Of a DNA stretch of 64,000 nt, positions 45,487 through 64,000 are shown piece by piece. The stretch is from Actinomycetota bacterium. GTDB taxonomy: Bacteria > Actinomycetota > Thermoleophilia > RBG-16-64-13. Where the stretch lies: positions 1-64,000 of the forward strand of contig JADQBG010000003.1 in assembly GCA_016278725.1 (NCBI GenBank). The letters are read 5' to 3'. A program made the position numbers and the translations under genes. The notes under the pieces were generated by a model. That model ran no database searches. It was given only the letters and a program-made list of their open reading frames with translations, and was not told where the DNA came from. Positions within the stretch are counted from its first letter, which is position 1, and every line of letters starts with the position of its first letter.

Positions 45487-46889
45487 CCGTCCTCGGAGTC
45501 AACCACAAGACCGCGTGTCTTAGCCTGCGGGAGCAGGTGGCATTGAACACCGAGGCCAGCCACAGGTTGGTGCGCACGCTCGTCGATTGCGCACAGGTGT
45601 CCGAGGCGGTGGCGCTCAGCACCTGCAACCGCACCGAGATCTACCTGGCCGGCACGGAACTGCCGCTGCGCACGGTGGCCAAGGATTGCCTCTGCTCGAG
45701 CACCGGCGTCTGCCGCACGGACCTGGACGACAGCGTCTATTACTACGAGAACATCGATGCCGTGGAGCACGTCTTCAGCGTCGCAGGCTCGCTCGACTCC
45801 ATGGTCTTGGGCGAAGCCCAGATCCTCGCGCAACTAAAAGAGGCGTACTCGGTGGCCCAGGAAGCCGGTACCACCGGGCCGATGCTCAACCGTCTGCTGC
45901 GCCGCTCGTTCGAGGTGGGCAAGCGGGTGCGTTCCGAGACCAAGATCTCCGAGGCCTCACTTTCGATCGCCTCGGTGTCGGTGGACCTGGCCCGCAACGT
46001 CTTTGGGGACCTGGCTGATCGTCCCGTGCTGGTCATTGGCGCCGGCGAGATGGCGGAGCTCGTGGTCACTCACCTGAAGGGCCACGGCGTGAATCGCATC
46101 CTGGTCTCCAACCGCACATATGAGCGGGCGGTTGCGCTTGCCGAGAAGTTCGGCGGCGAGGCGGTGAGATTCCAAGAGGAGCAAGAAGAGTCCGCAAGGG
46201 GCCAGAAGCAGATAGGCTCCCACCCCCACAACCTGGCCTTGGCTCAGCACCTGAGCCTGGCCGACATCGTCATCTCCTCCACCGGCTCCCCGGATCCCAT
46301 CATTGGCCGGAGTCTGCTTGAAGGAGTGATGCGCCGGCGCAAGAACCGGCCCATCTTCCTGATCGACATCGCGGTTCCTCGCGACATCGACCCCGAGGTG
46401 AACCGGGTCAGTAACGCCTATCTCTACGACATCGACGACCTGCAGGAGGTCGTGGCTTCGAATCTGGGTGAGCGCGAGCGCGAGGCGATCAGGGCGCGCG
46501 AGATCATCGCCGAGGAGGTGGGTTCCTTCGAGGAATGGGCGCGCAGCCTGACCGTGCTGCCCACACTGGTTGCCTTCCGGGAGTGGGCCTCGGCGATCAA
46601 AGACGAGGAACTGACCAAGTACCTGGGACGGATGCCCGATCTCTCCGAAGAGGACCGGGAGAAGGTGCAGGCGCTGGCGCACTCCATCATCAACAAGATT
46701 CTTCATCCCCCCACCATGGCGGTGAAAGAGAAAGCTGCGGCGGACGAGGGCCACCTCTATGCGGAGGCTCTACGCACGCTTTTCCAGCTGAACGGCGCCG
46801 GCCGGAGCCAGGGGGGAGCCGCAGAGAAAGACCGGGCCTCGAGCGGGTTTGGGTCCGAGGACAAGACAAACTCAAACTCGAGGAGCTAG
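45477..46889 (+). CDS. hemA: Glutamyl-tRNA reductase
   Basis: Reduces Glu-tRNA to glutamate-1-semialdehyde, the first step of C5 tetrapyrrole synthesis. Motifs: AVLGVNHKTACLSLREQVAL, the catalytic Cys in LSTCNRTEIYLAG, SLDSMVLGEAQILAQLKEAY, and VLVIGAGEMAELVVTHLKGH. The dimerisation helix region follows. An insert EEQEESARGQKQIGSHPHN sits in the NADPH domain. ATG 45477 overlaps the upstream gene by 10 bp. Confidence 0.95.
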   Translation: MRLAVLGVNHKTACLSLREQVALNTEASHRLVRTLVDCAQVSEAVALSTCNRTEIYLAGTELPLRTVAKDCLCSSTGVCRTDLDDSVYYYENIDAVEHVFSVAGSLDSMVLGEAQILAQLKEAYSVAQEAGTTGPMLNRLLRRSFEVGKRVRSETKISEASLSIASVSVDLARNVFGDLADRPVLVIGAGEMAELVVTHLKGHGVNRILVSNRTYERAVALAEKFGGEAVRFQEEQEESARGQKQIGSHPHNLALAQHLSLADIVISSTGSPDPIIGRSLLEGVMRRRKNRPIFLIDIAVPRDIDPEVNRVSNAYLYDIDDLQEVVASNLGEREREAIRAREIIAEEVGSFEEWARSLTVLPTLVAFREWASAIKDEELTKYLGRMPDLSEEDREKVQALAHSIINKILHPPTMAVKEKAAADEGHLYAEALRTLFQLNGAGRSQGGAAEKDRASSGFGSEDKTNSNSRS

Positions 46890-46891
46890 TC

Positions 46892-47872
46892 ATCAGCGCG
46901 AAGACCGTCGTCATCGGCTCACGCAAGAGCACGCTGGCCCTGACCCAGTCCCGCTTGGTTCGCCAGATGCTGTTGGATCTCGATCCCAGCCTGGACGTGC
47001 GAATCGAGAAGATCGTCACTTCCGGCGACCGTATCCTGGACTCTCCGCTTTCTCAGATCGGGGATCGGGGACTCTTCGTCAAGGAGATCGAGGAGGCCCT
47101 GTTACGAGGCGATATCGATCTCGCGGTCCACAGCGCCAAAGACGTGCCCACGGCGCTGCCGGAGGGTCTGGGGCTCTTGGCCTTTCCGCCCCGGGAGGAT
47201 CCGGCGGACGTCTTCGTCGGAGGCCTCGGCTCGGTGGATGAGCTCGGGCCCGGCAGGGTGATCGGCACGAGCAGTCTCCGCCGGCGCTCCCAGCTTCTGG
47301 CGAACTATCCCGAGCTCGAAGTGGTCGACATCCGGGGCAACGTGGAGACTCGCATCCGTAAGATAGAAGAGGAGAAGTTGGACGGCACCATCCTCGCCAG
47401 GGCCGGTCTCGAAAGGCTGGGCCGGCTGGGCGAAGCGGCCTTCGAGTTCCCGCTCGAGGTGATGGTGAGCGCCGTGGGGCAGGGATCGCTCGCGCTGGAA
47501 GGCCGCGTCGGCGACGAGAAGCTCGCCCCCTACGTCGAGCGGCTGGACCATGGGGCCACCCGCCAGGCGGTGCTCGCGGAACGTGCGCTGATGCGCACCC
47601 TCGAAGGAGGCTGCCAGGTCCCCATAGGCGCCCGCGGCGTCGTGCAGGACGGTGAGCTTCTCCTGGTTGCCTACGTGGGCAGCCTTGACGGGGAACGCCA
47701 CCTGCGCCGGGAGGCGCGCGGTCCGGCCGGGCGGCCGGAGGAACTGGGGACCCGGATGGCGGAGGAGTTGCTCGAAGCGGGCGCCGACGTCATCCTGGAG
47801 GAGATCCGCAGCGCCTGCGCCGCCCCGGACAGCCCGGACGCCTGCGAACCTCCGCCCCCGGCGGCAGGGTAA
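46892..47872 (+). CDS. hemC: Porphobilinogen deaminase (hydroxymethylbilane synthase)
   Basis: Polymerises four porphobilinogens. Motifs: VIGSRKSTLALTQSRLVRQM, SQIGDRGLFVKEIEEALLRG, DLAVHSAKDVPT, GTSSLRRRSQLL and the dipyrromethane-cofactor region EGGCQVPIGARG. The family starts a few residues before VIGSRKS, but no ATG, GTG or TTG is available there. AGGAG at 46881-46885 lies 6 bases before ATC 46892, only 2 bases after the hemA stop. I take ATC as the start. The C-terminus is Pro-rich. Confidence 0.9.
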   Translation: MSAKTVVIGSRKSTLALTQSRLVRQMLLDLDPSLDVRIEKIVTSGDRILDSPLSQIGDRGLFVKEIEEALLRGDIDLAVHSAKDVPTALPEGLGLLAFPPREDPADVFVGGLGSVDELGPGRVIGTSSLRRRSQLLANYPELEVVDIRGNVETRIRKIEEEKLDGTILARAGLERLGRLGEAAFEFPLEVMVSAVGQGSLALEGRVGDEKLAPYVERLDHGATRQAVLAERALMRTLEGGCQVPIGARGVVQDGELLLVAYVGSLDGERHLRREARGPAGRPEELGTRMAEELLEAGADVILEEIRSACAAPDSPDACEPPPPAAG

Positions 47873-47879
47873 CGGTCTG

Positions 47880-49433
47880 ATGGACGATACTCCGCGAAAT
47901 CACACTGTTGCCTGGCGCGATCCCCGGGTGTTCCTGGTGGGCGCCGGTCCGGGCGACCCGGGCCTGATCACGGTACGCGGCCTGCGGCTGCTCGAGCGGG
48001 CCGAAGTGGTCCTCTACGACCGCTTGGTGGACCCCATCCTGTTGGACGCAGCCCCTCCCAGCGCAGAGATGATCTACGTGGGCAAGCGCACGGCCGCGCA
48101 CACCGTGCCGCAGGACGACATCAACCGCCTGCTGCTTGAGCACGGCCGCCGGGGAAAGCGGGTGGTGCGGCTCAAAGGGGGCGACCCCTTCATCTTCGGC
48201 CGCGGCGGGGAGGAGGCGATGACCCTGCACGAGGCCGGCATACCCTTCGAAGTGGTGCCGGGCATCTCCGCGGGCTACTCGGTTCCCGCCTACGCCGGCA
48301 TTCCCGTGACCTATCGCGGCCTGACTTCACATGTCACCTTCGTCACCGGCCACGAAGACCCGACCAAGGACAGCGCGGCCCTCGATTGGGACAAGCTGGC
48401 ATCCGGGGTGGGAACCCTGGTCATCTTCATGGGCGTGAAGAACCTGCCGCAGGTGGTGCAGAAGCTCAAGGAACGGGGGCGGCCGGGAGACACTCCCGTC
48501 GCCCTCATCCAGCAGGGCACCCTGCCCCGTCAGCGCACCGTGGTCGGTTGCCTGGACGACATCGTCGACAAGGTGCGGGAATCGGGGCTGCGGCCGCCCG
48601 CGATCACCGTCATCGGCGATGTCGTCGCTCTGCGGGAGCAACTGGCCTGGGCCGAGCAGCGGCCGCTCTTTGGCCGCCGCGTGGTGGTCACCCGGGCGCA
48701 GGCGCAGGCGCAGGACCAAATCGAGCGGCTCCGTGACCTGGGAGCCGAGGTGATCGCCTTTCCCACCATCCGCATCGAACCGGTGATGCGCTCCCGCGAG
48801 ATCAGCGCCATGCTGGAAGGGCTTGGCCGCTACGAGTACGTGGTCTTCACCAGCGCGAATGCCGTCGCCTGCTTCTTCGAGAGACTGGGCGAGGCGGGCC
48901 TGGACGTCCGCCGGCTGCACCGGGCCACGGTGGTGGCCGTCGGCCCCAAGACGGCTGCCGCCTGCCGCGCCGGGGGCCTGCAGCCGGACCTCATCCCCGA
49001 GGCCTTCATCGGAGAGGGCATTCTCGAGGTGCTGAAGGACCGGGAGCTCGAGGGTGCCCGGGTGCTCATCCCCCGGGCCCGTAAGGCCCGTGACCTTCTC
49101 CCCCGGACTCTCAGTGCCGCCGGGGCGGTGGTCGAAGTGGTGCCCCTCTACGACACCCTGCCCACGGAGCCCGAGGCCAAGGTCATCGAGCGGGTGCTCG
49201 AGGCGGACTTCGTCAGCTTCACCTCGAGCTCGACGGTGACTAATTTCGCCGACCTCTTCCGCGAGCAGGGACTGGAGGACCGGTTGGGCGAGATCAAGGC
49301 CGCCTCCATCGGCCCGATGACGTCCGAGACCGTGCGCAAGGCGGGTATGCAGTTGATTGTCGAGGCCGGGGAGCACACGATCGAGGGGCTGGTGGAGGCT
49401 CTGGCGGCAGAGGCCGGCGGCTCGCCCAGATAA
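47880..49433 (+). CDS. cobA-hemD: Uroporphyrinogen-III C-methyltransferase/uroporphyrinogen-III synthase fusion
   Basis: Residues ~15-255 are the SUMT methylase: VFLVGAGPGDPGLITVRGLR, VRLKGGDPFIFGRGGEE and VVPGISAGYSVPAYAGIPVT. It converts uroporphyrinogen III to precorrin-2. Residues ~262-515 are HemD: GRRVVVTRAQAQAQDQIERL, VVFTSANAVACFFERLGEAG, and late FTSSSTVTNF. One protein thus closes the ring and commits it toward sirohaem. ATG 47880 is 7 bp after hemC; the ribosome-binding site is weak (GGCAGGGT). Confidence 0.93.
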   Translation: MDDTPRNHTVAWRDPRVFLVGAGPGDPGLITVRGLRLLERAEVVLYDRLVDPILLDAAPPSAEMIYVGKRTAAHTVPQDDINRLLLEHGRRGKRVVRLKGGDPFIFGRGGEEAMTLHEAGIPFEVVPGISAGYSVPAYAGIPVTYRGLTSHVTFVTGHEDPTKDSAALDWDKLASGVGTLVIFMGVKNLPQVVQKLKERGRPGDTPVALIQQGTLPRQRTVVGCLDDIVDKVRESGLRPPAITVIGDVVALREQLAWAEQRPLFGRRVVVTRAQAQAQDQIERLRDLGAEVIAFPTIRIEPVMRSREISAMLEGLGRYEYVVFTSANAVACFFERLGEAGLDVRRLHRATVVAVGPKTAAACRAGGLQPDLIPEAFIGEGILEVLKDRELEGARVLIPRARKARDLLPRTLSAAGAVVEVVPLYDTLPTEPEAKVIERVLEADFVSFTSSSTVTNFADLFREQGLEDRLGEIKAASIGPMTSETVRKAGMQLIVEAGEHTIEGLVEALAAEAGGSPR

Positions 49434-49486
49434 TCGAGTCCCAAATCCGCTGGAAGACCAACCGAGGGGTCCGCGGGAGTCGTTGC

Positions 49487-49492
49487 TATACT
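49487..49492 (+). promoter_or_regulatory. Possible -10 box upstream of hemB
   Basis: TATACT in TTGCTATACTCTC lies 70 bases before the hemB ATG in the 128-bp gap after cobA-hemD, and may give hemB-rSAM its own promoter. Confidence 0.4.
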
Positions 49493-49561
49493 CTCTCGGT
49501 TGCGCCCAGAGCGCTCCGAGAGAACCCGGTTTCGCCCTAGTTCCGGAGGTGTCCGCAGCAC

Positions 49562-50548
49562 ATGTACTTTCCCCAGTACCGGCCGCGCCGTATGCGGCAG
49601 AGTGAGACCCTCCGAGGTCTGGTCCGCGAAAACCGCCTGCACCCCGACAGCTTCGTCTACCCCATGTTCGCCATCCACGGCGAGGATGTGCGCAATCCGG
49701 TCGCCTCTATGCCGGGCGTGTTTCAGCTCTCGATCAACCACCTGGTGGAGGAAGCGCGAGAGGTGGCGGAGCTGGGTGTCAAGAGCGTAATCCTCTTTGG
49801 AATCCCGGAGCAGAAGGACGAGGCCGCCTCCGGCGCCTACGACCCCGAGGGCATAGTGCAGATGGCCACGCGGGCCCTCAAGCAGGAACTGCCCGAGCTC
49901 ACGGTGATGGCCGACGTCTGCCTTTGCGAATACATGAGCCACGGTCACTGCGGCGTGGTTCAGGGCGATAAGGTGCTCAACGACGTCTCGCTGGAACTTC
50001 TGGCGAACGCGGCCGTCAGCCTGGCCCACGCCGGGATCGACGTGGTCGCGCCCTCGGACATGATGGACGGCCGGGTGGGCGCCATCCGTTCGGCGCTCGA
50101 TCAGGAGGGGCACACCGAGCTGCCGATCATGTCCTACAGCACCAAATACGCCTCGGCTTTCTACGGCCCCTTCAGGGACGCCGCCGAATCGCCCCCGGCT
50201 TTCGGCGACCGCCGCTCGTATCAGATGGACCCGGCCAACTCGGACGAGGGAGTGCGGGAAGCCCTGATCGACATCGAGGAGGGGGCCGACGTCGTCATGG
50301 TCAAGCCCGCTCTGCCCTACCTGGACCTGATCTACCGGCTGAAGACGGAAACCCACTATCCCGTCGCCGCGTACAACGTCAGCGGCGAGTACGCCATGGT
50401 CAAAGCCGCCGCCGAGAAGGGCTGGATCGACGAGAAGGCCGTGGTCCTCGAGACACTGCTTGGCATCAAGCGCGCGGGGGCGGACATCATCATCACGTAT
50501 CACGCCAAGGACGCGGCCCGCTGGTTGGCCGAGGAGAGCAGTACCTGA
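49562..50548 (+). CDS. hemB: Porphobilinogen synthase (delta-aminolevulinate dehydratase)
   Basis: Condenses two 5-aminolevulinates. Motifs: zinc-site DVCLCEYMSHGHCG, catalytic Lys in MSYSTKYASAFYGPFRDAAE, the second Schiff-base Lys in VMVKPALPYLDLI, and AAYNVSGEYAMVKAA. Three Cys suggest a zinc-dependent enzyme. CCGGAGG precedes ATG 49562. The stop overlaps the radical SAM start in TGATG. Confidence 0.96.
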   Translation: MYFPQYRPRRMRQSETLRGLVRENRLHPDSFVYPMFAIHGEDVRNPVASMPGVFQLSINHLVEEAREVAELGVKSVILFGIPEQKDEAASGAYDPEGIVQMATRALKQELPELTVMADVCLCEYMSHGHCGVVQGDKVLNDVSLELLANAAVSLAHAGIDVVAPSDMMDGRVGAIRSALDQEGHTELPIMSYSTKYASAFYGPFRDAAESPPAFGDRRSYQMDPANSDEGVREALIDIEEGADVVMVKPALPYLDLIYRLKTETHYPVAAYNVSGEYAMVKAAAEKGWIDEKAVVLETLLGIKRAGADIIITYHAKDAARWLAEESST

Positions 50549-51696
50549 TGGAAGAAACGGAAAAGACGGAACAGACCGAGGAGATCCAGTACCTGCCCAA
50601 GCTGATCGCTTGGGAGGTCACCCGCTCTTGCAACCTGTCCTGCAGGCACTGCCGGGCTTCGGCAGAGAAGGGTCCCTACCCCGGCGAGCTGACCACCGCC
50701 CAGGGCAAGGCGCTGGTGGACGACGTCGCTGCTTTCGCCAACCCCGTGCTCATCATGACCGGCGGTGACCCGCTGATGCGCGAGGACATCTGGGAACTGG
50801 CCGAGTACGCGATTCATCAGGCCGGGCTGCGCGTGGTGATGTCTCCAAACGGCACCTTGGTGACCCCGGAAGCCGCGCGCAAGATGAAGGAGGTGGGAAT
50901 CCCCCGGATCTCCATCTCGATCGACTTCCCCACCGCCCAGATGCACGATGAATTTCGCGGCGTTCCCGGGGCCTACGAAGGAGCGGTACGCGGGGTGAAG
51001 ACCGCGCTCGAGGCCGGCGTCCAGGTGCAGATCAACTCCACCATCACCAAGCTGAACGTGGACTACCTGGACGACCTGCTCAACCTCTCCAAGGAACTGG
51101 GGGCGGTGGCCTTTCACCCCTTCCTGCTGGTTCCCACCGGCCGGGGCAAGCAACTGGGACCGGAGGAGCTCCCCCCGGAGGACTACGAACGCACGCTCAA
51201 CTGGGTGTACGAGCGGCAGAAGACTTCGGACATCTTCTTCAAACCCACCGACGCGCCGCATTATCACCGCATCATGCGCCAGCGGGCCAAAGAGGACGGC
51301 ACCGACCTCTCCGAACTCAAGATGCATCCCCATTCGCACGCCATGATGGCCGGCGGGGTGGGCAAGTCCCGCGGACACGGCGACATGGACTCGCACTCGA
51401 AGGGTTGTCTTGCCGGAACCGGCTTTTGCTTCATCAGCCACACCGGCAAGGTGCAGCCGTGCGGCTACTTCGATGTGGTGGCGGGCGACGTCAAACAGCA
51501 GCAGTTCAGCGAGATCTGGCGCACGTCCGAGCTCTTCCGGGATCTGCGGGACGTCTCCAAGCTCAAGGGCAAGTGCGGCATCTGTGAGTACCGCCGGGTG
51601 TGCGGCGGCTGCCGGGCGCGGGCCTACGAGATAACCGGGGACTACCTGGCCGAGGAGCCCTACTGCGTGTATGAGCCCGTCCGTCAGGGTTGCTGA
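50548..51696 (+). CDS. Radical SAM/SPASM protein of the AhbC/AhbD/NirJ group
   Basis: A 382-residue radical SAM enzyme. The SAM cluster is in TRSCNLSCRHCRASA and the SAM motif in IMTGGDPLMREDI. The C-terminal auxiliary cluster has GCLAGTGFCFISHTGKVQPC, then KCGICEYRRVCGGCRARAYE and EEPYC. These match enzymes that finish haem synthesis from sirohaem (AhbC, deacetylase; AhbD, haem synthase) or haem d1 (NirJ). I favour AhbC/AhbD because Met8- and CobA-type genes stand in the same operon; which one cannot be decided by eye. AhbA/B are absent from the window. Confidence 0.82.
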   Translation: MEETEKTEQTEEIQYLPKLIAWEVTRSCNLSCRHCRASAEKGPYPGELTTAQGKALVDDVAAFANPVLIMTGGDPLMREDIWELAEYAIHQAGLRVVMSPNGTLVTPEAARKMKEVGIPRISISIDFPTAQMHDEFRGVPGAYEGAVRGVKTALEAGVQVQINSTITKLNVDYLDDLLNLSKELGAVAFHPFLLVPTGRGKQLGPEELPPEDYERTLNWVYERQKTSDIFFKPTDAPHYHRIMRQRAKEDGTDLSELKMHPHSHAMMAGGVGKSRGHGDMDSHSKGCLAGTGFCFISHTGKVQPCGYFDVVAGDVKQQQFSEIWRTSELFRDLRDVSKLKGKCGICEYRRVCGGCRARAYEITGDYLAEEPYCVYEPVRQGC

Positions 51697-53282: not shown

Positions 53283-53361
53283 CCGCTTTCCGCTCTGGCG
53301 CTTGGCTAGGCCGCGCCTTGGCAGCGCCTCTTTGCCCGTCCGTCTTCCGGAGGGCGCGTGC

Positions 53362-53367
53362 TAACAT
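53362..53367 (+). promoter_or_regulatory. -10-like element for a leaderless PIN-TPR transcript
   Basis: TAACAT lies 6 bases before GTG 53374. There is no ribosome-binding site between them; the nearest GGAGGG is about 19 bases away from the start. A leaderless mRNA fits best. Confidence 0.4.
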
Positions 53368-53373
53368 CCTTGG

Positions 53374-54471: not shown

Positions 54472-54484
54472 CTCGCGGCGGGGT

Positions 54485-55129
54485 CTACTCGACTACGCTC
54501 AGGATCAGCCGCTCTTTTCCGGGCGCTGCGGAGTCCACCATGAGCCTGGCCTCGAGCGGTTCGGCTCCGAAGACGGCGGCATCGGCGACGGTTCCCTGGC
54601 TTCCGGAAAGCCGCCATCCACGCTCTTCCAAGAACGTCGCGAATTCCCGTCGTCCCTCCGCTTCGTCCAGCGCGGAACCTCCGCCCACCTCCACCGTGCC
54701 CACCGCGACCAAACGGGCGGCCTCCTCAGCCGTGAGCGCATCTCCTGCGCGCAGGGAGGGCAGTCCCCCTGACTGCCAGGCGTATCCGCGGTCGGCAAGC
54801 CAATTGACCATCGCGGCGAGTTCCGCGGCCATCTCGCGCAGCGGTTCCTCTTGGGCGGGCGGCACGGCGTCTATTCCTGCGACCTTGACGTTATCTACGT
54901 AGGTGACGTCGCGCGTGAACCACCAGAGCATCGCCAACGCCAAGAGCAGGGCGGCGAACACCCGGAAGTAGACCGTCCAGCGCCGGGGGAGACGAAGCCC
55001 AAAGATGCGCCAGGCCGAGGTATCGAGCCGAGGGTCGTCGTTGGCGCCGGTATCGCCGTTCTTGGGTTGGAACGGATCCGCGAGTTCGTCCCGCCCGGGT
55101 GGACGCGACTGGGCCACCGCTTGACTCAA
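54485..55129 (-). CDS. Unknown single-pass membrane protein
   Basis: A 214-residue protein with a polar, Pro/Asp-rich N-terminus, one membrane segment (VYFRVFAALLLALAMLWWF) and a ~130-residue extracytoplasmic domain (FTRDVTYVDNVKVAGIDAVP). No family was recognised. TTG 55129 overlaps the stop of the gene upstream in TTGA and has GGGAG 5 bases before it. The 3' end faces the PIN-TPR gene with 13 bp between the stops. Confidence 0.6.
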   Translation of the reverse strand: MSQAVAQSRPPGRDELADPFQPKNGDTGANDDPRLDTSAWRIFGLRLPRRWTVYFRVFAALLLALAMLWWFTRDVTYVDNVKVAGIDAVPPAQEEPLREMAAELAAMVNWLADRGYAWQSGGLPSLRAGDALTAEEAARLVAVGTVEVGGGSALDEAEGRREFATFLEERGWRLSGSQGTVADAAVFGAEPLEARLMVDSAAPGKERLILSVVE

Positions 55130-55356
55130 CGGGCTCCCGGGGGCTTGAGCAGATATCCACCGGAGATCGCCATGATGAAGCCAAGAACGGTGAAAATGAG
55201 AAACTGGATCAGGTCGAACTCGAGGAACTGAAAGACGGCCAGGGTCCACAGGGTCACCCCGCCCACCAGAAAGAGCAGTCCGACGAAGTTCGGAAAGTCG
55301 AATTTCGATCCCAACTGGGCTCCCCCTGCTTGATCCTTGGGCCTTGACGGCTTGAT
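55126..55356 (-). CDS. Small two-pass membrane protein
   Basis: A 76-residue protein with two membrane segments (FVGLLFLVGGVTLWTLAVFQ and LIQFLIFTVLGFIMAISGGY) after a short polar start (KPSRPKDQAGGAQLG). No ATG, GTG or TTG lies near this start; AAGG is 9 bases before an ATC at 55356, and a TACTAT-like -10 lies just upstream on the minus strand. The ORF is open further up to 55620, but the added residues run through the divergent promoter region and look non-coding. Function unknown. Confidence 0.5.
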   Translation of the reverse strand: MKPSRPKDQAGGAQLGSKFDFPNFVGLLFLVGGVTLWTLAVFQFLEFDLIQFLIFTVLGFIMAISGGYLLKPPGAR

Positions 55357-55582
55357 CTGGACACCTTCTAGACGGGTGCTATAGTAGCAGACTGCAGGGG
55401 CTTGTGAAATCTCTTGCGTTGGCCTTTGAAGTGGCAGGCTCCTTGTAAAGTTCCAGCAAATCTGCCACAACTGGGAGCAAGACATGAGCCTCTGGTGGTC
55501 CAGGAAGACCCCTTCGCCGGGGTGGGCCATTGAGGCCTCGGGATGTTCGCCCATCCCGTTGCTTACATAGAAGGAGCTGTTG

Positions 55583-56374
55583 TTGCCTGATGGTGGGAGG
55601 AGACGGTTCCGCTTCCGCATCTATGATGTGGGTGGGCGGGCCGTTCGAATACGTCTACGCTACCTGATCCTCGTGGGTTTCGGCCTGGCGACGGTTGCCG
55701 CAGCCTTCCTTTTCGTGCCCTTTTACGTGACCAGCACGCCTCAGTTCTGTTCGAATTGTCACATCATGGACCCCTTCATCTCCTCGTGGGAGGAGTCCAC
55801 CCACTCCAAGTTCGGCTGCGCCGAATGTCACGTGCGCCCAGGAATCCTGAACCACGTGGTCAACCAGGTGCGGGTAACCCAAAACATCTACGCCAACCTG
55901 GTTGGGGGCGCGGAGATGCCGGCGACCATCGAATCGGCCAGCAACGAGAACTGCCTGCAGGCGGGTTGTCACAGCCTAAACCGCACTGCCTCCACGTCCG
56001 GAGATCTGCTCATACCGCACTACGATCACGTCACCCTGCGCGGCCTGCAGTGCAAACACTGCCACTTCAACGTGGTCCACACTCCGGAGGGCGGTACCCC
56101 GGTGCCGCCGATGGGGGTCTGCGCCATGTGCCACGACGGAACTCAGGCTCCGAACGAGTGCGACACCTGCCACCAGGAACCCCCGACCGCAGAAGAGGCG
56201 CACGCAGATCTCGCTTTGGAGCAGCACGCGGAGTTCGCGCGAGGACGGGAGCAGGAGTGCTTCGACTGCCACCACGCCGACCAGTCCTTCTGTTCCAAAT
56301 CCGGTTGCCACGAGCCGGGCGAGTTCCAGTCCCTGACCGAGCGCGCGAGGATCGAAGAGAGGTTTAGCGAGTAA
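55583..56374 (+). CDS. NapC/NirT-like octahaem c-type cytochrome
   Basis: One N-terminal membrane anchor (LRYLILVGFGLATVAAAFLF) and a periplasmic multihaem domain, as in quinol-oxidising NapC/NirT/NrfH proteins. Eight haem motifs: CSNCH, CAECH, CKHCH, CAMCH, CDTCH and CFDCH, plus two of CX3CH form, CLQAGCH and CSKSGCH. TTG 55583 has AAGGAG 6 bases upstream; TTG 55580 is too close to it. It starts a run of nine co-directional genes and is paralogous to the next gene (shared STPxFCxNCH, EMP, HYDHVTLRGL versus HRDHVELRDL). Confidence 0.85.
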   Translation: MPDGGRRRFRFRIYDVGGRAVRIRLRYLILVGFGLATVAAAFLFVPFYVTSTPQFCSNCHIMDPFISSWEESTHSKFGCAECHVRPGILNHVVNQVRVTQNIYANLVGGAEMPATIESASNENCLQAGCHSLNRTASTSGDLLIPHYDHVTLRGLQCKHCHFNVVHTPEGGTPVPPMGVCAMCHDGTQAPNECDTCHQEPPTAEEAHADLALEQHAEFARGREQECFDCHHADQSFCSKSGCHEPGEFQSLTERARIEERFSE

Positions 56375-57360
56375 TGCGTTGGCCGCGTTTTCTCCGAATC
56401 TATGACGAGAGCGGGCGCCCCGTGCGGTTGCGGGTGCCTTATCTGATCTTTATCGCGGCCGCCATCGTGATTATCGTGATCGCCGCCGTCTACCTGCCGG
56501 TGGCGATGACCTCCACGCCGAGCTTCTGCGGAAACTGCCACCTGATGCAAGAGCCGGTGGAGCTGTGGGAAAACTCGACTCACGCCAACGTCAACTGCAT
56601 CCAATGCCACATCGATCCCGGCTTTATCAACACGCTCGAGCATAAGCTGATGTCCTATAAGGAGATCTACGGGCAATTCCTCGGCGACGGAGAGATGCCC
56701 GACGAGATCCAACTGCCCTCGAACGAGGCCTGTCTGCAGTGTCACTCTCTCGACCGGAACGTTTCGCCCGGCGGGGACATCAAGATTCCGCACCGAGACC
56801 ACGTGGAGTTGCGCGATCTGCTCTGCGCCGACTGCCACTTCAACGTGGTTCACACCCGCCGGGCCATCTCGGGCGGCAATCCGCCCATGGACGTTTGCTA
56901 CATGTGCCACGACGGCGAACAGGCGCCCAACGAATGCGAGACCTGCCACACTACCCCGCGCGAGGATTTTGTCGAACAGGGTCATCCGGTGGATGCCTTG
57001 GAAAACCACGGCGCCCTTGCCCGTGAGCGCGTCGAGGACTGCTACCGATGCCACTCCCAGGAGTCCGGCTTCTGCGAGGATTGCCACAGTCAGCCGCCGG
57101 CCACGCACGCACGCGAGGATTGGCGCTACACCCATCGCATCGAGGTCAATCGGGACGGGCGCAGCTCTTGCCAGGGTTGCCACGAAGAAGATTTCTGCCA
57201 GAAGTGCCACAGTGTCCAGCACCCGCCCAACTGGGTGAACCAGCACGGGGACTTTGCTCAGGGCGGCGGCGAGGCATGTCTCGTCTGCCACGCACCGGGA
57301 TTTTGCAACGACTGCCATGATAGCGAAGGAGTCGGCATGCAAATAGGTCAGGCTCAGTAG
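56374..57360 (+). CDS. NapC/NirT-like dodecahaem c-type cytochrome
   Basis: A membrane-anchored cytochrome with 12 CxxCH motifs: CGNCH, CIQCH, CLQCH, CADCH, CYMCH, CETCH, CYRCH, CEDCH, CQGCH, CQKCH, CLVCH and CNDCH. The anchor is LIFIAAAIVIIVIAAVYLPV. The first six haems align with the upstream octahaem paralogue; the C-terminal half is added. It would take electrons from quinol and pass them outward along a haem wire. Its ATG overlaps the upstream stop (TAATG). Confidence 0.85.
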   Translation: MRWPRFLRIYDESGRPVRLRVPYLIFIAAAIVIIVIAAVYLPVAMTSTPSFCGNCHLMQEPVELWENSTHANVNCIQCHIDPGFINTLEHKLMSYKEIYGQFLGDGEMPDEIQLPSNEACLQCHSLDRNVSPGGDIKIPHRDHVELRDLLCADCHFNVVHTRRAISGGNPPMDVCYMCHDGEQAPNECETCHTTPREDFVEQGHPVDALENHGALARERVEDCYRCHSQESGFCEDCHSQPPATHAREDWRYTHRIEVNRDGRSSCQGCHEEDFCQKCHSVQHPPNWVNQHGDFAQGGGEACLVCHAPGFCNDCHDSEGVGMQIGQAQ

Positions 57361-57389
57361 AGCAAAGTCGGCCGATGAAGGAGGAGATC

Positions 57390-58325
57390 TTGAAGACGGT
57401 GGCCGGAGCTGCCGGGGGGTTAGCGAAAGAATTCACGTGTCTTCGTCGGTGGGCGGGGCTCGGGGGTCTCGCTGTCATCCTGCTCGTGCTCCTCTCGGGG
57501 GAGGGGGCCTGGGCGCAGGAGAGCGGGCAGCCGGCCGCGCCGGACAAAAACGGCTGCTTGGTCTGCCACGGGCAGGAATACTTGGGATCAGTAGAGGTGG
57601 ACGGAACAGCGCAGGATCTCTTCGTCCGCCCCGAGGCCTACCAGGACTCGGCTCACGGGCTGCTGCCTTGCACTTCGTGCCACATCGGCTTCACCCACGA
57701 GAATCCGCATCAGATGGTGACGAACGCGGAGTTCTTCGCCGAGACGGCGCGCGAGGCGTGCCGTAATTGCCATGCCGACCAGTTCGAGATGTATCAGCAG
57801 AGCTATCACGGCAAACTGAGCCAGGGAGGTGTCGCCGGTGGGGTCCAGGCCCCCGGATGCACCGACTGCCACGGCATGCACCAGGTGCAGCGTGTCGACA
57901 CTCTGGAATATCGTCAGGACATTCAGCAGATCTGCGGGCAATGTCACGGCGGCCGCGAGGACACCTTCCTCGATACCTACCACGGCAAGGCCATCACCCT
58001 CGGGCGAGAGGCTTCGTCCACCTGCGTGGATTGCCACGGTTCGCACTTCATCCTGCCCACCGACAACCCGATGTCCACGCTTTCTGAGGCCAACGACCTC
58101 GAGACTTGCCAGAAATGCCATCCCGACGCCGACGAGGGCTTCACCACCTTCTTGGTTCATATTCAGCCCACCTCCACCGATGCCCCTTTGATCGTCTTCG
58201 CGGTGGCGGTCTTCTACATTTCGATGATCGTGGTGGTCTTCGCCTTCGGGGGGATTCACACGCTCCTGTACATCTACCGGGGGCTCAAGAACGGTCTCTA
58301 CTTCCGTAAAGGAGGTCACCACTGA
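57390..58325 (+). CDS. Exported heptahaem cytochrome c with C-terminal membrane anchor (copy 1)
   Basis: A signal peptide (GLAVILLVLLSGEGAWAQ) is followed by seven CxxCH motifs: CLVCH, CTSCH, CRNCH, CTDCH, CGQCH, CVDCH and CQKCH. One C-terminal transmembrane segment (VFAVAVFYISMIVVVFAFGG) anchors it. TTG 57390 is chosen because AAGGAGG lies 5 bases upstream; ATG 57375 contains that sequence and has none of its own. It is paired with the cytochrome b that follows, and the pair recurs at 59235-61030. Confidence 0.82.
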   Translation: MKTVAGAAGGLAKEFTCLRRWAGLGGLAVILLVLLSGEGAWAQESGQPAAPDKNGCLVCHGQEYLGSVEVDGTAQDLFVRPEAYQDSAHGLLPCTSCHIGFTHENPHQMVTNAEFFAETAREACRNCHADQFEMYQQSYHGKLSQGGVAGGVQAPGCTDCHGMHQVQRVDTLEYRQDIQQICGQCHGGREDTFLDTYHGKAITLGREASSTCVDCHGSHFILPTDNPMSTLSEANDLETCQKCHPDADEGFTTFLVHIQPTSTDAPLIVFAVAVFYISMIVVVFAFGGIHTLLYIYRGLKNGLYFRKGGHH

Positions 58326-59176
58326 TGGCGGCCGGCACCGACGCGCGCGAAGGGGTGCGCCTCGTCTACAGAAGGTTCAGCGCCTTTCACCGGTTCAACC
58401 ACTACCTGGTGATGATCAGCTTCTTCGGTTTGGTCCTCACTGGGATTCCGCTCAAGTTCAAGGACAGCGTCTGGGCCGAGTTCTTCATGGACCTGATCGG
58501 CGGTGTCGAAGGGGCGGGATTCGTCCACCGCGTGATGGCGGTGTTCAATTTCACGTATTTCTTCCTGGAAATGGGCTATATGGCTTGGTACGTGGCCGCC
58601 CGCAAGGGCCCCCTTTTCGGCCCTGACTCCATCGTCCCGGGCAAGAAGGACTGGCAGGACATCAAGGGCATGTTTCGCTGGTTCCTGGGCAAAGGGCCCA
58701 AGCCGCGGTTCAACCGCTTCACCTATTGGGAGAAGTTCGACTTTTGGTCTCTCATGGCCGGCACCGTCCTGATCGGTGGAACCGGTCTCATGATGTGGTT
58801 CCCTGAGTTCACCGCTTCCCTCCTCCCGGGAGTGTCGCTCAACGTGGCCCTGGTGCTTCATTCCAACGAGGCCTTCCTGGCCACCGGGGTGATCTTCATC
58901 TTCGTCCACTTCTTCTCGGCGCACGGACGCCCCGAGTCCTTTCCCGCCGACGAGGTGATCTTCAGCGGCAGCCTGCCTCTCGATCACTACATCGCGGACC
59001 GGCCCGCCGAATACGAAAACCGTCTGCGGGCGGGGACGCTCGATCAGGTGGTGCGTCCCGCGCCGACCGGACCCATGACCCGCGTGAATTCGTGGCTCAT
59101 GGCCATATTCAGCGTGGTTGCGCTGTTCGCCGCCACCTACACCATGTTGCTGGTGGTGTGGCCGCTTCTGTTCTAG
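58325..59176 (+). CDS. Membrane cytochrome b subunit (copy 1)
   Basis: A 283-residue protein with about five membrane segments and His residues placed for two b haems: FSAFHRFNHYLVMISFFGLV, FVHRVMAVFNFTYFFLE, and VALVLHSNEAFLATGVIFIF with VHFFSAHG. It resembles the cytochrome b of formate dehydrogenase/hydrogenase (FdnI/HyaC) type. It may oxidise quinol and hand electrons to the neighbouring heptahaem cytochrome. AAAGGAGG precedes ATG 58325; the start overlaps the upstream stop in TGATG. Confidence 0.83.
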   Translation: MAAGTDAREGVRLVYRRFSAFHRFNHYLVMISFFGLVLTGIPLKFKDSVWAEFFMDLIGGVEGAGFVHRVMAVFNFTYFFLEMGYMAWYVAARKGPLFGPDSIVPGKKDWQDIKGMFRWFLGKGPKPRFNRFTYWEKFDFWSLMAGTVLIGGTGLMMWFPEFTASLLPGVSLNVALVLHSNEAFLATGVIFIFVHFFSAHGRPESFPADEVIFSGSLPLDHYIADRPAEYENRLRAGTLDQVVRPAPTGPMTRVNSWLMAIFSVVALFAATYTMLLVVWPLLF

Positions 59177-59234
59177 CTTGGCAATCCGTTTTTGGAAGGT
59201 GAGTAGGATCTTGCAGTCGAATACGGGGGAGAAG

Positions 59235-60260
59235 ATGAATCTGACGGGGGTGGGCTTGCCGCGGCCCCGGCGCCGCGTCTCGAGGGTCGCGGCTTCGGCC
59301 GCGTTCTCGGCTATCTTGATGCTTGGGCTTTTTGTCGGCGTGGCCTCGGCCCAAGATGTCGAGGGCTGCCTGATCTGCCACGGCGACCCGAATTTCACCG
59401 ATCCCACGCCACCGGAAAACCTGGAGGAGGGGGAGGACCTCTCTCTCTATGTCGATGCCGAGAAGTTCCTAGGCTCCGTGCACGACGAGCTGAAGTGCTC
59501 CGATTGCCACAAGGGCTTCCTCCTGACCATTCCCAACCATCAAATCGACGTGGACAAGGATTTCCGGCAGGTGGCAATCGAAGCCTGCGAAGGCTGCCAC
59601 CAGGAGGCCTTCCAGCAATACCAGACCTCGGAGCACGCTCAGCGCTTCTACGAGGATCAGGCGGGGCCGATCTGTATCAGTTGCCACGGCTCGCACGCCA
59701 TTCGCCGGGTGAACCTGGGCGAGGAGTCGGCGGACTTCAAGATGAGCATGGCCCGTGACTCCTGCGGGCAGTGCCACGAGGACAAGTTCGAACAGGCCAG
59801 CCACGAGTTCCACTTCAAGGCGCTCTCACTCGGCTATGAGCGGGCGGCCACCTGCTTCGACTGCCACGGCTTTCACGACAATCTGGCCCTGACCTCCGGC
59901 GAACCGGAGACGGTCGAGGCCTGCCGCCAGTGCCACCCCGGCGCGAACAAGGGCTTCACCTACTTCCAGATGCACCTGCAGGAGGGCTTCCAGGACGCCT
60001 GGTGGGGCGTGCGTGCCGTCTATTACCTCTTCAGCACGTTGCTGGTCGTGGTGCTCGTAACCGGCATCGCCTACACCACCGTGCACTTCCAGAAAGAAAC
60101 CCGGACCATGCTCGGGGTATTCGGCCGTGGCGCGGGACGCCTCTTCGGCTTCATCCGTCACCTCGAGGAAGAGTCGGTGAAAGAGCGCGAAGGGCGGCCG
60201 AACGGCCCGGAGGATCACTCCAACGATAAGCCCGAGAACGACCACAGGGGGATGCTGTAA
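59235..60260 (+). CDS. Exported heptahaem cytochrome c with C-terminal membrane anchor (copy 2)
   Basis: Paralogue of the 57390 gene. Signal peptide AFSAILMLGLFVGVASAQ, seven CxxCH motifs (CLICH, CSDCH, CEGCH, CISCH, CGQCH, CFDCH, CRQCH) in the same order and spacing, a transmembrane segment (YYLFSTLLVVVLVTGIAYTT) and a cytoplasmic charged tail of ~55 residues. GGGGGAGAAG precedes ATG 59235. It is coupled to the next cytochrome b through TAATG. Confidence 0.85.
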   Translation: MNLTGVGLPRPRRRVSRVAASAAFSAILMLGLFVGVASAQDVEGCLICHGDPNFTDPTPPENLEEGEDLSLYVDAEKFLGSVHDELKCSDCHKGFLLTIPNHQIDVDKDFRQVAIEACEGCHQEAFQQYQTSEHAQRFYEDQAGPICISCHGSHAIRRVNLGEESADFKMSMARDSCGQCHEDKFEQASHEFHFKALSLGYERAATCFDCHGFHDNLALTSGEPETVEACRQCHPGANKGFTYFQMHLQEGFQDAWWGVRAVYYLFSTLLVVVLVTGIAYTTVHFQKETRTMLGVFGRGAGRLFGFIRHLEEESVKEREGRPNGPEDHSNDKPENDHRGML

Positions 60261-61030
60261 TGGCCGAGGCGACCTACCCGGCTGTGGGCGAGGAGCGGCC
60301 GGAGGGAGCGGCGGTTGCCGAGACGAATGTCGAGGGCCGGGACTACTATGTCCGTTTCTCGCCCTACCACCGGCTGAGCCACTTCGTCATGATGACCACC
60401 TTCATCGGCTGCGCCCTCACCGGCCCGCCGCTGAAGTACAGCTATGACTTCTGGGCTCAGGCGATGATGGGCTTCTGGGGCGGGGTGCAGAACGCCGGCC
60501 TGATCCACCGCGTGATGGCGGGTTTCATGGTCGCCGACTTCGTCGTCCATGTGCTCTACCTCGGCTACCACATCGGGGTCAAGAAGGCCAAGATCTTCGG
60601 GCCGGACTCGATCTTCTTCTGGAAGAAGGATCTGTCCGACGCCTTGGGCATGGTCAAGTGGTTCTTCGATCGCGGCCCCCGGCCCAGGTTCGAGCGCTTC
60701 ACCTTCTGGGAGAAGTTCGACTACTGGGCGGTTTTCTGGGGGATCGCGATGATCGGCACTTCGGGCTTCGCGCTCTGGTTCCCCACGGTGACCAGCACGC
60801 TGGTGTCCGGCATCTTCCTCAACGTGGCGCGGATCATCCACGGTGACGAGGCCATCCTGGCCATCGGCTGGATCCTCTTCGTCCACCTGTACAACTCCCA
60901 CCTGCGCATGAACGTCTTTCCGATGGACCCGGTCATCTTCACCGGGCGTATGCCTGTCGAGCACGTCAAGCACGACAAGGCCGCCTGGTACGACCGACTG
61001 GTCCGGGAAGGAAAGATCAAGCCGGAGTGA
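60260..61030 (+). CDS. Membrane cytochrome b subunit (copy 2)
   Basis: Paralogue of the 58325 gene. The two share FGPDSI, then a K-rich loop, RGPRPRFERFTFWEKFDYW versus KGPKPRFNRFTYWEKFDFW, and the paired His helices YHRLSHFVMMTTFIGCALTG and LIHRVMAGFMVADFVVHVLY. The N-terminus is extended by ~25 polar residues. ATG 60260 overlaps the heptahaem stop, and the stop overlaps the next gene. Confidence 0.84.
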   Translation: MAEATYPAVGEERPEGAAVAETNVEGRDYYVRFSPYHRLSHFVMMTTFIGCALTGPPLKYSYDFWAQAMMGFWGGVQNAGLIHRVMAGFMVADFVVHVLYLGYHIGVKKAKIFGPDSIFFWKKDLSDALGMVKWFFDRGPRPRFERFTFWEKFDYWAVFWGIAMIGTSGFALWFPTVTSTLVSGIFLNVARIIHGDEAILAIGWILFVHLYNSHLRMNVFPMDPVIFTGRMPVEHVKHDKAAWYDRLVREGKIKPE

Positions 61031-61935
61031 TGGGGAGCATGCCGCAAAAAGACAGCTTCGCGCCCCCGGAGGGGCATTCGCAGATCGAGTGGGGGCGAGC
61101 ACCAGCTCTGCTCTTCCTCGCGGTCCTGGCCGTTGCAGTGGTCCTGCTGGCCGGCTGTGGAGAGAGTGAACCCTCGAGCGCCGAGACCTTTGGGCAGCGG
61201 TTGCTCGAAGCGGAGCAGCAGCCGGAGGTGTCGGCCGAACCGGCCAGCTTCATCAGCCTATGCGCCAACTGCCATGACCGTCTCGACCGGGAACTCGACT
61301 GGCGGCGGGAGCGAAAACTGGTGTTCAGCCATCCCGCCCACTTCGCCCAGGGCATCCGCTGCGAGGCGTGCCACAAGGAGTTTCCGCACAAACCCGGACG
61401 AACGTTGCACGTAGACGTCGAGACCTGCTTCGTGTGCCACGGGACCCTTCACGGGCAGGACGGGGAGTTGGCTTCGACCGACTGCGAGACCTGCCACACT
61501 CCCGATATTGCCCCGGTGACCGACGACCACAGCCTGTCCAACTGGCTTCTGGCCGAAGGGCCGGAACGAGCCGGCCACGCGCAGAAGGCGCTCCAGCAGC
61601 GCCTGTACTGCAAGATGTGCCACCAGGAGACCTTCTGCCAGGACTGTCATCAGGTGGAAATGCCGCATCCGGAGGACTGGGAGGTCGCGCATATGCCGGC
61701 CGCCCAGGAAAACGAGGGAGCATGTGACAAGTGCCATACGCCGGAGTACTGCAATGCCTGCCACCACGCCGACTTCGAAAAGCTACCGGACTGGCGCCGG
61801 CAGCACCGCACGGTGGTCGGTGACGTGGGAACCGACGCTTGCTTTGAATGTCATAACCCTGCTTTCTGCGCGGACTGCCACGTTCGGGTGGGTCAAGACA
61901 GGGGTGTTCTCGGGGGGCCGGGAAACGGGGGCTAA
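61030..61935 (+). CDS. Decahaem c-type cytochrome lipoprotein
   Basis: A lipoprotein: hydrophobic stretch LLFLAVLAVAVVLLAGCGES with lipobox LAGC. Ten CxxCH motifs follow: CANCH, CEACH, CFVCH, CETCH, CKMCH, CQDCH, CDKCH, CNACH, CFECH and CADCH. One haem carries the C-x-x-C-H-x3-M-P-H-P module shared with the next two genes. ATG 61030 overlaps the cytochrome b stop; GTG 61027 and ATG 61039 are also in frame. Confidence 0.83.
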   Translation: MGSMPQKDSFAPPEGHSQIEWGRAPALLFLAVLAVAVVLLAGCGESEPSSAETFGQRLLEAEQQPEVSAEPASFISLCANCHDRLDRELDWRRERKLVFSHPAHFAQGIRCEACHKEFPHKPGRTLHVDVETCFVCHGTLHGQDGELASTDCETCHTPDIAPVTDDHSLSNWLLAEGPERAGHAQKALQQRLYCKMCHQETFCQDCHQVEMPHPEDWEVAHMPAAQENEGACDKCHTPEYCNACHHADFEKLPDWRRQHRTVVGDVGTDACFECHNPAFCADCHVRVGQDRGVLGGPGNGG

Positions 61936-61953
61936 GTGAAAGAGGAGGACCCC

Positions 61954-62796
61954 ATGAAGACCCCCTGGCGTCACCGCGGGACGGAGATCCTGCCGGGAGT
62001 CCTTCTCCTGGCGGCGTTAATTGCCGTTGCGGTCTTCGCGCTGGGCTGCGGGGAAGAAGCCGCGGCGCCGGGCAGCGCCGCCGAGCAGCCCGAGGCCGCC
62101 CCGGCAGTACCGGTCAGGAGTGAGCAATGTCTGTCCTGCCACACCGACTTTGCCGAGCGCATTTCGAATGAGAACCAACGGGTCTTCTCTCACGAACTCC
62201 ATCTGGAGCAGGAGATCGACTGCAGCGCCTGCCACTCGGATGTGGGACACGATGGGGCTCCGATTCACCGTCCGAGTGACTGTCAGAATTGCCACGGAAT
62301 CACCATGCCGCACCCCGGTGGTTTCGTAAATGACCACGGCGCGCAGGTGCTCGAAGAAGGCACCGACGTCTGCACCCGTTGCCACGATATCCATCTGCAC
62401 TGTCAGGCATGTCACGGCATCGAGATGCCGCACCCCGCCGAATGGGACCAGAAGCACGGCGAGTTGGCGGTGCCGGAGTTGGAGTCCTGCAGGCAGTGTC
62501 ATCAGCCCGACTTCTGCCTGCAGTGCCATCCGGTGGAGATGCCGCACCCCGCTGATTGGATAAAGACCCACGGCCTTCCCGTGGTGGACCAGGGATCCGC
62601 GACGTGCACCAAGTGCCATGAGCCCGAGCTTTGCGTCAGCTGTCACGGTATGCCCATGCCCCACCCAGACGATTGGGGTACCGGTCACCCGGCTGTGGCC
62701 GCGGAGAAGCGGGCCGAATGCCTGCTTTGCCACACCGAGCAGGACTGCGCCGATTGTCACGACATCCATCAGACTCACGGGAAGGATGGTGTGTGA
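61954..62796 (+). CDS. Undecahaem c-type cytochrome lipoprotein with MPHP repeats
   Basis: A lipoprotein with LIAVAVFALGCGEEAAAPGS (lipobox ALGC). Eleven CxxCH motifs: CLSCH, CSACH, CQNCH, CTRCH, CQACH, CRQCH, CLQCH, CTKCH, CVSCH, CLLCH and CADCH. Four haems are followed by an MPHP module, as in CHGIEMPHPAEWDQKHG and CHPVEMPHPADWIKTHG, spaced about 40-50 residues apart. The body is thus an internal repeat of a two-haem unit. GAGGAGG lies 5 bases before ATG 61954, so GTG 61936 is rejected. Confidence 0.85.
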   Translation: MKTPWRHRGTEILPGVLLLAALIAVAVFALGCGEEAAAPGSAAEQPEAAPAVPVRSEQCLSCHTDFAERISNENQRVFSHELHLEQEIDCSACHSDVGHDGAPIHRPSDCQNCHGITMPHPGGFVNDHGAQVLEEGTDVCTRCHDIHLHCQACHGIEMPHPAEWDQKHGELAVPELESCRQCHQPDFCLQCHPVEMPHPADWIKTHGLPVVDQGSATCTKCHEPELCVSCHGMPMPHPDDWGTGHPAVAAEKRAECLLCHTEQDCADCHDIHQTHGKDGV

Positions 62797-63746
62797 TGCG
62801 CCCATCGATCGGTTCCCGTAAGAAACGCTTCGGCCTGCTCCTGGTCGTGGGGCTGCTCCTGGTCTTGGGGGGTACCGTGCTCTGGGACTCGCCGGACTCC
62901 ATGGCGCAGGGGGAATCGGAACCCGAGCGTACCCGCACGGACCTTCGCAGACTCCCGACGACCAGTGAGCAAACCGACGTGAACGCTGCCCCGAGAGAGT
63001 CCGGGGGCGAGCCCTTCCGCACCTGCGAGGCTTGTCACCCCGACTTCTTGCAGAAGCCTCCTCCGTCAGCGGATCTGATCTTCTCCCACCAAACCCATTT
63101 GGACGAAGACGTGGAATGCGCCACCTGCCATAACCCTCCCCTGGGTCATTTTGGCAAGCCGGCTGCTTTGATGAGCACCTGTCTCTCCTGCCACGAGGGA
63201 CAGACCGCACCCAACGAATGCGAGAACTGCCACCGCAAGTTGGAAGAGATCGCGCCCAATCTGGACGAACCCATCGTGCACCTCAACCCCGATGCTTCCA
63301 CGCGGCAGAGTTGCGACAACTGCCACGACGTGGAGGTTTGGTGCGAACGCTGCCACGGCGTGGAGATGCCTCACCCCGACACCTGGAAGAGCGCCCACGG
63401 AGCGGTGGCCTTGGCGGGGGCACAGGTGTGCGAGAAGTGTCATCAATCCAAAGACCCCGCCTACTGCGTGGAATGCCACGGGGTGGCAATGCCTCATCCG
63501 GCCTATTGGTATTCGGGCCATGGAGACATTGCCTCGGACAATCGGGACACCTGCAATCAGTGTCATCCGGAGGCGCCTCAATACTGCAACGACTGTCACC
63601 ACGCGGGCTTCTCGCCCACCGAGGATTGGCTGCCGGAACAGCATGGTCAGATCGTGGACGAGCGCGGGGAGTCCACCTGCCTTGTTTGCCACGAGGAGGC
63701 ATTCTGCGCCGAGTGCCACACCGCAGGACGGTTTGTTAAGGGATGA
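62796..63746 (+). CDS. Exported dodecahaem c-type cytochrome
   Basis: An N-terminal hydrophobic segment (FGLLLVVGLLLVLGGTVLW) acts as signal or anchor. There are 12 CxxCH motifs: CEACH, CATCH, CLSCH, CENCH, CDNCH, CERCH, CEKCH, CVECH, CNQCH, CNDCH, CLVCH and CAECH. Two carry the MPHP module (CHGVEMPHPDTWKSAHG, CHGVAMPHPAYWYSGHG). The last four haems resemble the end of the decahaem protein. ATG 62796 overlaps the upstream stop in TGATG. Confidence 0.85.
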   Translation: MRPSIGSRKKRFGLLLVVGLLLVLGGTVLWDSPDSMAQGESEPERTRTDLRRLPTTSEQTDVNAAPRESGGEPFRTCEACHPDFLQKPPPSADLIFSHQTHLDEDVECATCHNPPLGHFGKPAALMSTCLSCHEGQTAPNECENCHRKLEEIAPNLDEPIVHLNPDASTRQSCDNCHDVEVWCERCHGVEMPHPDTWKSAHGAVALAGAQVCEKCHQSKDPAYCVECHGVAMPHPAYWYSGHGDIASDNRDTCNQCHPEAPQYCNDCHHAGFSPTEDWLPEQHGQIVDERGESTCLVCHEEAFCAECHTAGRFVKG

Positions 63747-63829
63747 TCCTGGAGAGGAGGGCTTAGCCGGCCTCTCGAGAACCAATACGTCATTCACATT
63801 TCGCGGGACAGAGTGAAGGAGGTGAACGC

Positions 63830-64000
63830 ATGATTAGACTGCGAAATCAGAGCCTGCTGCTCGCATCTGCCCTGGTCCTTCTACTGGCTGCGCTGGTGTT
63901 CTTCGCCGGTTGCCAGGAAGCCGACGACGAACCGGAGGCCACCGACACCGAGGCGACGGAAACCACCGACACCGGAGCAACCGCAGGGACCGAGGACACC
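63830..64000 (+). CDS. Lipoprotein, N-terminal part (runs off the window)
   Basis: Begins MIRLRNQSLLLASALVLLLA with lipobox FFAGC, then an Asp/Glu/Thr-rich linker (EATDTEATETTDTGATAG). The linker is very like that of TupA in this window. AAGGAGG lies 6 bases before the ATG. Only 57 codons are visible, so the mature domain is unknown; it may be a binding protein or another exported redox protein of the cytochrome cluster. Confidence 0.7.
   Translation, partial: MIRLRNQSLLLASALVLLLAALVFFAGCQEADDEPEATDTEATETTDTGATAGTEDT

Follow-up and report, generated by a model that had tools for sequence, protein, structure and literature searches.

Analysis of the first 64,000 bases of contig 15 (JADQBG010000003.1) of an Actinomycetota assembly (2.73 Mb, 99.65% complete), hereafter the window, uncovered a conserved cluster of ten genes, A to J, that together encode 77 haem-binding motifs. 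We propose, with moderate confidence, that this operon is a quinol-to-exterior electron conduit of a monoderm actinobacterium. The cluster combines two predicted quinol dehydrogenases of each of two kinds with four tethered cytochromes and holds no catalytic reductase, in a genome that lacks outer-membrane machinery; export across a monoderm wall is the simplest account. The parts are known from metal-reducing bacteria, and we did not find their arrangement described before in the literature searched.

A ten-gene cluster with 77 haem-binding motifs

Open reading frame (ORF) calls place nine co-directional genes, A to I, at 55583-63746 on the plus strand, as a sequence-only reading of the window had reported. 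That reading ended the cluster at 63746, which proved wrong: a tenth gene, J (317 amino acids, 10 CxxCH), begins 83 nucleotides (nt) past I and lies mostly outside the window. The by-eye sum of 67 motifs for the first nine genes was exact, comprising 65 CxxCH and two CX4CH (A, 6 plus the 2 CX4CH; B, 12; C, 7; D, 0; E, 7; F, 0; G, 10; H, 11; I, 12), and J adds the remaining 10. These counts are not due to chance, because shuffled proteins of the same composition rarely gave any motif (mean 0-0.18, maximum 3). The genes had also been described as mostly overlapping, which holds at five of the eight junctions from A to I (1 nt at A/B, C/D, E/F and H/I; 4 nt at F/G) but not at B/C and D/E, where gaps of 14 and 58 nt occur, nor between G and H, which abut. 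It is plausible that A to I form one translational unit.

A terminator-like hairpin (12 pairs, 11/12 G-C) lies 27 nt past J, at contig positions 64811-64838. The stretch scanned for promoter-like sites held two, one of them on the plus strand (Table 1), against 1.6 expected by chance, and no RNA elements were found at 50000-64000. ORFs and family profile searches revealed no porin gene and no catalytic reductase in the cluster, which also has no CxxCK motif (the NrfA-type active-site haem).

Two NapC-type anchors and two split CbcL-type pairs

The two NapC-like anchors of the sequence-only reading, with 8 and 12 haems, are supported by matches to PF03264 and by a CxxCHxM motif at haem 1 of both A and B, as in NrfH. 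Each has a hydrophobic stretch for one transmembrane (TM) helix. Both exceed the NapC/NirT cut-off and fall below the NrfH, NapC and TorC equivalog cut-offs, and B matches NrfH of known structure (2j7a_C, E 1.4e-8). The TTG start codon of A is preceded by AGGAG. Every A orthologue retains the two CX4CH motifs, which in alignment fall on regular CxxCH positions of B; haem is thus probably bound at both. Across six orthologues, B has 11 invariant histidines outside the motifs which, with the methionine of CxxCHxM, give 12 possible distal ligands for 12 haems. We thus regard A and B as putative NapC/NrfH-type quinol dehydrogenases with multihaem extensions, which would oxidise quinol. They share the single N-terminal TM helix, NapC/NirT domain and CxxCHxM of NapC, NrfH and CymA, but carry 8 and 12 haems by virtue of a C-terminal extension related to the exported cytochromes. 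ImcH, in contrast, has three N-terminal TM helices and seven haems. NrfHA nitrite reductase also differs, since it has NrfA with CxxCK beside its anchor, whereas the cluster holds no CxxCK and NrfHA of this genome is encoded elsewhere.

The next four genes form the two heptahaem-cytochrome b pairs reported earlier, C-D and E-F. Rather than orphan modules, they are split relatives of the CbcL/MtrH/MtoC family. C aligned with the c domain of Geobacteraceae CbcL-type proteins (27-30% over 274-277 amino acids, E 1e-29 to 1e-30) and E did so more weakly (1e-12 to 1e-15), while D and F were 43-49% identical to the CbcL b domain, with the helix histidines conserved. For their seven haems, C and E both show seven invariant histidines outside the motifs, plus an eighth within or close to the C-terminal TM helix; the C-terminus of C bears yet another. 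Outside the class, most of the best relatives of D and F were b domains within fused proteins carrying 9 to 21 haems, among them CbcL-type proteins from Geomonas and Trichlorobacter. A maximum-likelihood tree separated three clades: D of the two families that carry the cluster or its six-gene version (see below; 100/99), F (100/100) and the fused CbcL-type proteins (96/89). These separate clades, together with the alignment of C to the CbcL c domain, argue that the pairs are split CbcL relatives and distinct from each other. A recent tandem duplication giving rise to D and F was rejected, as each falls in its own clade.

CbcL of Geobacter sulfurreducens, with nine c haems and a di-haem b domain, thus shares homologous c and b domains and the c-before-b order with C-D and E-F. 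It is fused in one polypeptide, however, whereas here seven c haems and the b subunit lie on two genes, two such pairs stand side by side, and D and F make up two clades outside the fused one. The c and b parts are on separate genes in every actinobacterial copy of the cluster, while searches with F in three Geobacteraceae genomes returned only single frames of 615-656 amino acids, of the fused type. CbcBA of G. sulfurreducens likewise comprises two genes, to judge by its name. Actinobacteria yielded no CbcL homologue in a 2018 survey (PMC6295460); CbcL-type quinone oxidoreductases do occur in Actinomycetota, as a split form.

Four related exported cytochromes

Of the three exported proteins reported with 10, 11 and 12 haems, the counts stand (G, H and I), but with J there are four. 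The four are mutually related. At the N-terminus most resemble cytochrome c7, H only weakly; dihaem units come next, with motif spacings of about 9-12 and 29-31 residues and, in several of the units, MPHPxxW. G, H and J carry a lipobox in the orthologues examined, except for H of one genome (G006), whose N-terminus perhaps reflects a misassigned start or an assembly error; I has an N-terminal hydrophobic anchor only. The conserved set of possible distal ligands is nearly complete, with invariant non-motif histidines numbering 10 for 10 haems in G, 10 for 12 in I and 9 for 10 in J. The shortfall in I and J is a possible sign of open or Met-ligated haems.

The cluster is conserved and under purifying selection

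We searched 119 relatives for the cluster, with follow-up, and 399 genomes of the class for D-type genes. The cluster occurs in seven other genomes of the same family, across several genera. Scattering of the genes in close relatives, named beforehand as one outcome that would refute the sequence-only reading, was not seen: all ten genes stand in the same order in six of the seven, and the first eight are seen in the other (G005), whose contig ends inside H. Haem counts are constant wherever a gene is intact (8-12-7-b-7-b-10-11-12-10). Frames of B, E or F are broken in G005 and/or G006, perhaps through assembly errors. Ratios of nonsynonymous to synonymous substitution rates between the window and its nearest relative were 0.04-0.15, demonstrating purifying selection on all ten genes. 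In none of the relatives examined does a gene for a catalytic subunit stand within the operon or beside it.

The cluster is absent from ten further genomes of the family: nine gave no match and one (G007) gave only diverged c/b pairs. A six-gene version, in which three large cytochromes accompany a B-like anchor and a C-D-like pair, occurs in another family of the class, and all D-type matches (19 of 399 genomes) fell in these two families. Four genomes, none in the window's genus, have an eleventh gene after J that encodes a membrane-anchored protein with 15 CxxCH (L041:1886-3178, L044:10706-12025, L045:2840-4351, L046:1-1292). The two diverged heptahaem/b pairs of G007 and G005 (L049:8160-12113, L050:7342-13790), which G005 has besides the main cluster, form a separate clade in the b-subunit tree.

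Proposed electron export from a monoderm cell

In extracellular electron transfer, proteins of the CbcL and ImcH types are established quinol dehydrogenases, and Geobacter uses them at different potentials (PMC6295460, PMC12307469). In the reading that we favour, menaquinol would be oxidised at the membrane by A, B and the pairs C-D and E-F; A/B and the two pairs would probably differ in driving potential, like ImcH and CbcL in Geobacter. From the haem chains of A to F, electrons would move on to four wires tethered to the membrane, the lipoproteins G, H and J and the N-terminally anchored I, whose regularly spaced dihaem units may carry them through the wall zone. The acceptor outside would most likely be Fe(III) or Mn(IV) minerals, humics or a partner cell. 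The sequence-only reading had proposed the same order from quinol to the outside, and the analysis supports it as a reading. A more specific form is tentative and rather doubtful: two kinds of quinol dehydrogenase, four in all and set to different potentials, might feed four tethered cytochromes whose c7-like heads and tandem dihaem units make a continuous haem path through the wall, a single-operon wire that does without an outer membrane and replaces the porin conduit of diderms.

Several observations weigh against electron export. The genome encodes aa3-type and cbb3-like oxidases plus two more COX1-family genes, as well as NrfHA outside the cluster (contig 15, ~148.4-150.5 kb, L142). With these present, an extracellular acceptor is not required for respiration, and the cluster is one branch of a versatile electron-transport chain. 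The family of the CbcL b domain is thought to work both ways (PMC6295460). Family profile searches found no SLH or other wall-binding domain on G to J, which leaves it an inference that these proteins reach the surface. AlphaFold models of I and B, built from 11 and 6 sequences, were unusable (mean predicted local distance difference test scores of 44 and 47), probably for want of alignment depth and haem.

Some of these points would suit the same conduit running inward. In that case G to J would accept electrons from outside, be it from a partner cell, Fe(II) or Mn(II), and quinone reduced by C-D/E-F would supply NrfHA or the oxidases. The reversibility ascribed to CbcL/MtoC homologues, which occur in Fe(II) oxidisers (PMC6295460), agrees with this direction, as do the haem-copper oxidases and NrfHA of the genome. 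NapC/ImcH-type dehydrogenases, however, are mostly tied to quinol oxidation (ImcH so far to that only; PMC6295460), and RuBisCO was not found in the genome, so lithoautotrophy by that route is not supported; we consider inward flow unlikely. We also think it improbable that the acceptor is a soluble one at the membrane face, the haems storing electrons or distributing them, as a capacitor or hub, to the oxidases and to reductases encoded elsewhere (NrfA, molybdoenzymes). Other NapC-like loci and molybdoenzyme cofactor genes do occur in the genome alongside NrfHA and the oxidases, and G to J without a wall-binding domain would fit a hub, but four wires plus six proteins for entry at the membrane, all in one operon, exceed its needs, NrfA has its own NrfH, and catalytic subunits are missing from the operon and its flanks in the relatives, as noted above.

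The histidine shortfall in I and J raises the prospect that one exported cytochrome is itself a reductase with open haem sites. Against this, some orthologues of both have more histidines, methionine could be a ligand, and histidine counts do not show coordination. Moreover, similarity to known multihaem reductases does not extend beyond short c7/c3-like stretches, and we regard such an activity as very improbable.

Comparison with known electron-export systems

Read as a system for electron export, the cluster invites comparison with cymA-cymA-mtrH-mtrABC of Rhodoferax ferrireducens, which likewise joins two NapC-type quinol dehydrogenases with a CbcL-type one, though only one, in a single electron-export cluster (PMC6295460). 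The Rhodoferax cluster includes an outer-membrane porin conduit, whereas the cluster here has no porin and Omp85 was not found in the genome. The same holds for porin-cytochrome conduits such as Mtr, Pcc and Mto, which place an outer-membrane beta-barrel between two cytochromes. In monoderm metal reducers such as Thermincola potens, multihaem cytochromes lead from a single membrane into the wall (PMC6497744), as we propose here. Multihaem-rich, Fe(III)-reducing Actinomycetota are already known (PMC9686372, PMC7399161). Anaerosomatales, for example, have 17-18 multihaem genes (PMC9686372), but these are scattered or in small differing clusters, in contrast to ten genes in fixed order.

As the sequence-only reading had supposed, no named complex of this composition was found in the literature searched, which was mostly without subscription papers. 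Neither did we find there a description of split CbcL in Actinomycetota, of the doubled entry types or of the fixed ten-gene order, which may be described elsewhere. Little is understood of how electrons cross a monoderm wall, and few cases underlie the idea of electron export in Actinomycetota; the conserved ten-gene set gives a defined list of parts, and a marker to look for in metagenomes.

Table 1 Features of the cytochrome cluster and its surroundings (window positions unless marked as contig)
Feature	Position	Strand	Remarks
A, NapC/NrfH-type membrane-anchored cytochrome, 263 aa	55583..56374	+	8 haem sites (6 CxxCH + 2 CX4CH, the latter probable); PF03264 50.3 bits, cut-off 24.1
B, NapC/NrfH-type membrane-anchored cytochrome with C-terminal extension, 328 aa	56374..57360	+	12 CxxCH; PF03264 65.4 bits
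C, heptahaem cytochrome c, signal sequence and C-terminal TM helix	57375..58325	+	homologue of CbcL c domain
D, b-type cytochrome of CbcL/FdnI kind, partner of C	58325..59176	+	PF01292; conserved His 26, 68, 179, 195, 200
E, second heptahaem cytochrome c, C-terminal TM helix	59235..60260	+	ATG at 59235
F, second b-type cytochrome, partner of E	60260..61030	+	most conserved of the ten genes, 83-98% in family
G, lipoprotein cytochrome, 302 aa	61027..61935	+	10 CxxCH; 10 invariant non-motif His; c7-like head and three dihaem units
H, lipoprotein cytochrome, 286 aa	61936..62796	+	11 CxxCH; four dihaem units of ~39 aa, three with MPHPxxW
I, N-terminally anchored or secreted cytochrome, 316 aa	62796..63746	+	12 CxxCH; 10 invariant non-motif His; no lipobox
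J, lipoprotein cytochrome, 317 aa	contig 63830-64783 (L008:13831-14784; in window 63830..64000)	+	10 CxxCH; 9 invariant non-motif His; lipobox
Promoter-like site TGGACA-16-TATAGT, TG before -10	55358..55385	+	~200 nt upstream of A; 10/12 matches; weak evidence
Divergent membrane protein, no known family	54485..55249	-	kept beside cluster in relatives whose flank was examined, 46-83% identity
Haem-synthesis block: hemX/ccsA-like, met8/cysG-N, hemA, hemC, cobA-hemD, hemB, ahbD	43716..51696	+	kept upstream of cluster in two other genomes
aa, amino acids.

Neighbouring genes and other loci

A catalytic reductase next door was sought and none was found: the neighbours encode haem and molybdopterin synthesis, an NlpC/P60 protein, a protein with PIN and TPR domains (PIN-TPR) and a diguanylate cyclase, with a molybdate/tungstate-type transporter also upstream. 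The moaC-to-ahbD block, the NlpC/P60 gene, the PIN-TPR gene and the cluster follow in the same order in G001 and G006. The PIN-TPR gene was tried as a marker of the empty site, and relatives without the cluster also have no orthologue of it. The divergently transcribed membrane protein is a possible accessory gene, and the haem-synthesis block is likely support rather than part of the conduit. The first gene of that block, at 43716, was rejected as the cytochrome c synthase CcsB, since ResB was not found in the genome and CcmF and CcmC are present on contig 11. Its place beside hemA fits HemX, as in hemAX operons. The ahbD gene (50548-51696; TIGR04545, 511 bits, cut-off 500), for the haem b synthase of the sirohaem route, lies beside met8, cobA-hemD and hemB. 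The organism thus probably makes its haem b by that route, and its genome also has haem-copper oxidases.

At L142, NrfH and NrfA (with CxxCK) make up a separate nitrite-ammonification locus. In other families of Actinomycetota (L194, L195), a heptahaem/b pair is followed by three NapC-like anchors with 10, 10 and 12 haems, another arrangement of the same parts. Finally, a second multihaem locus of the window's own genome (G000), on contig 18 (139.1-142.1 kb; L174:7102-10093), encodes in adjacent genes an 8-haem lipoprotein related to J and a protein of 717 amino acids with 27 CxxCH and a C-terminal TM helix.

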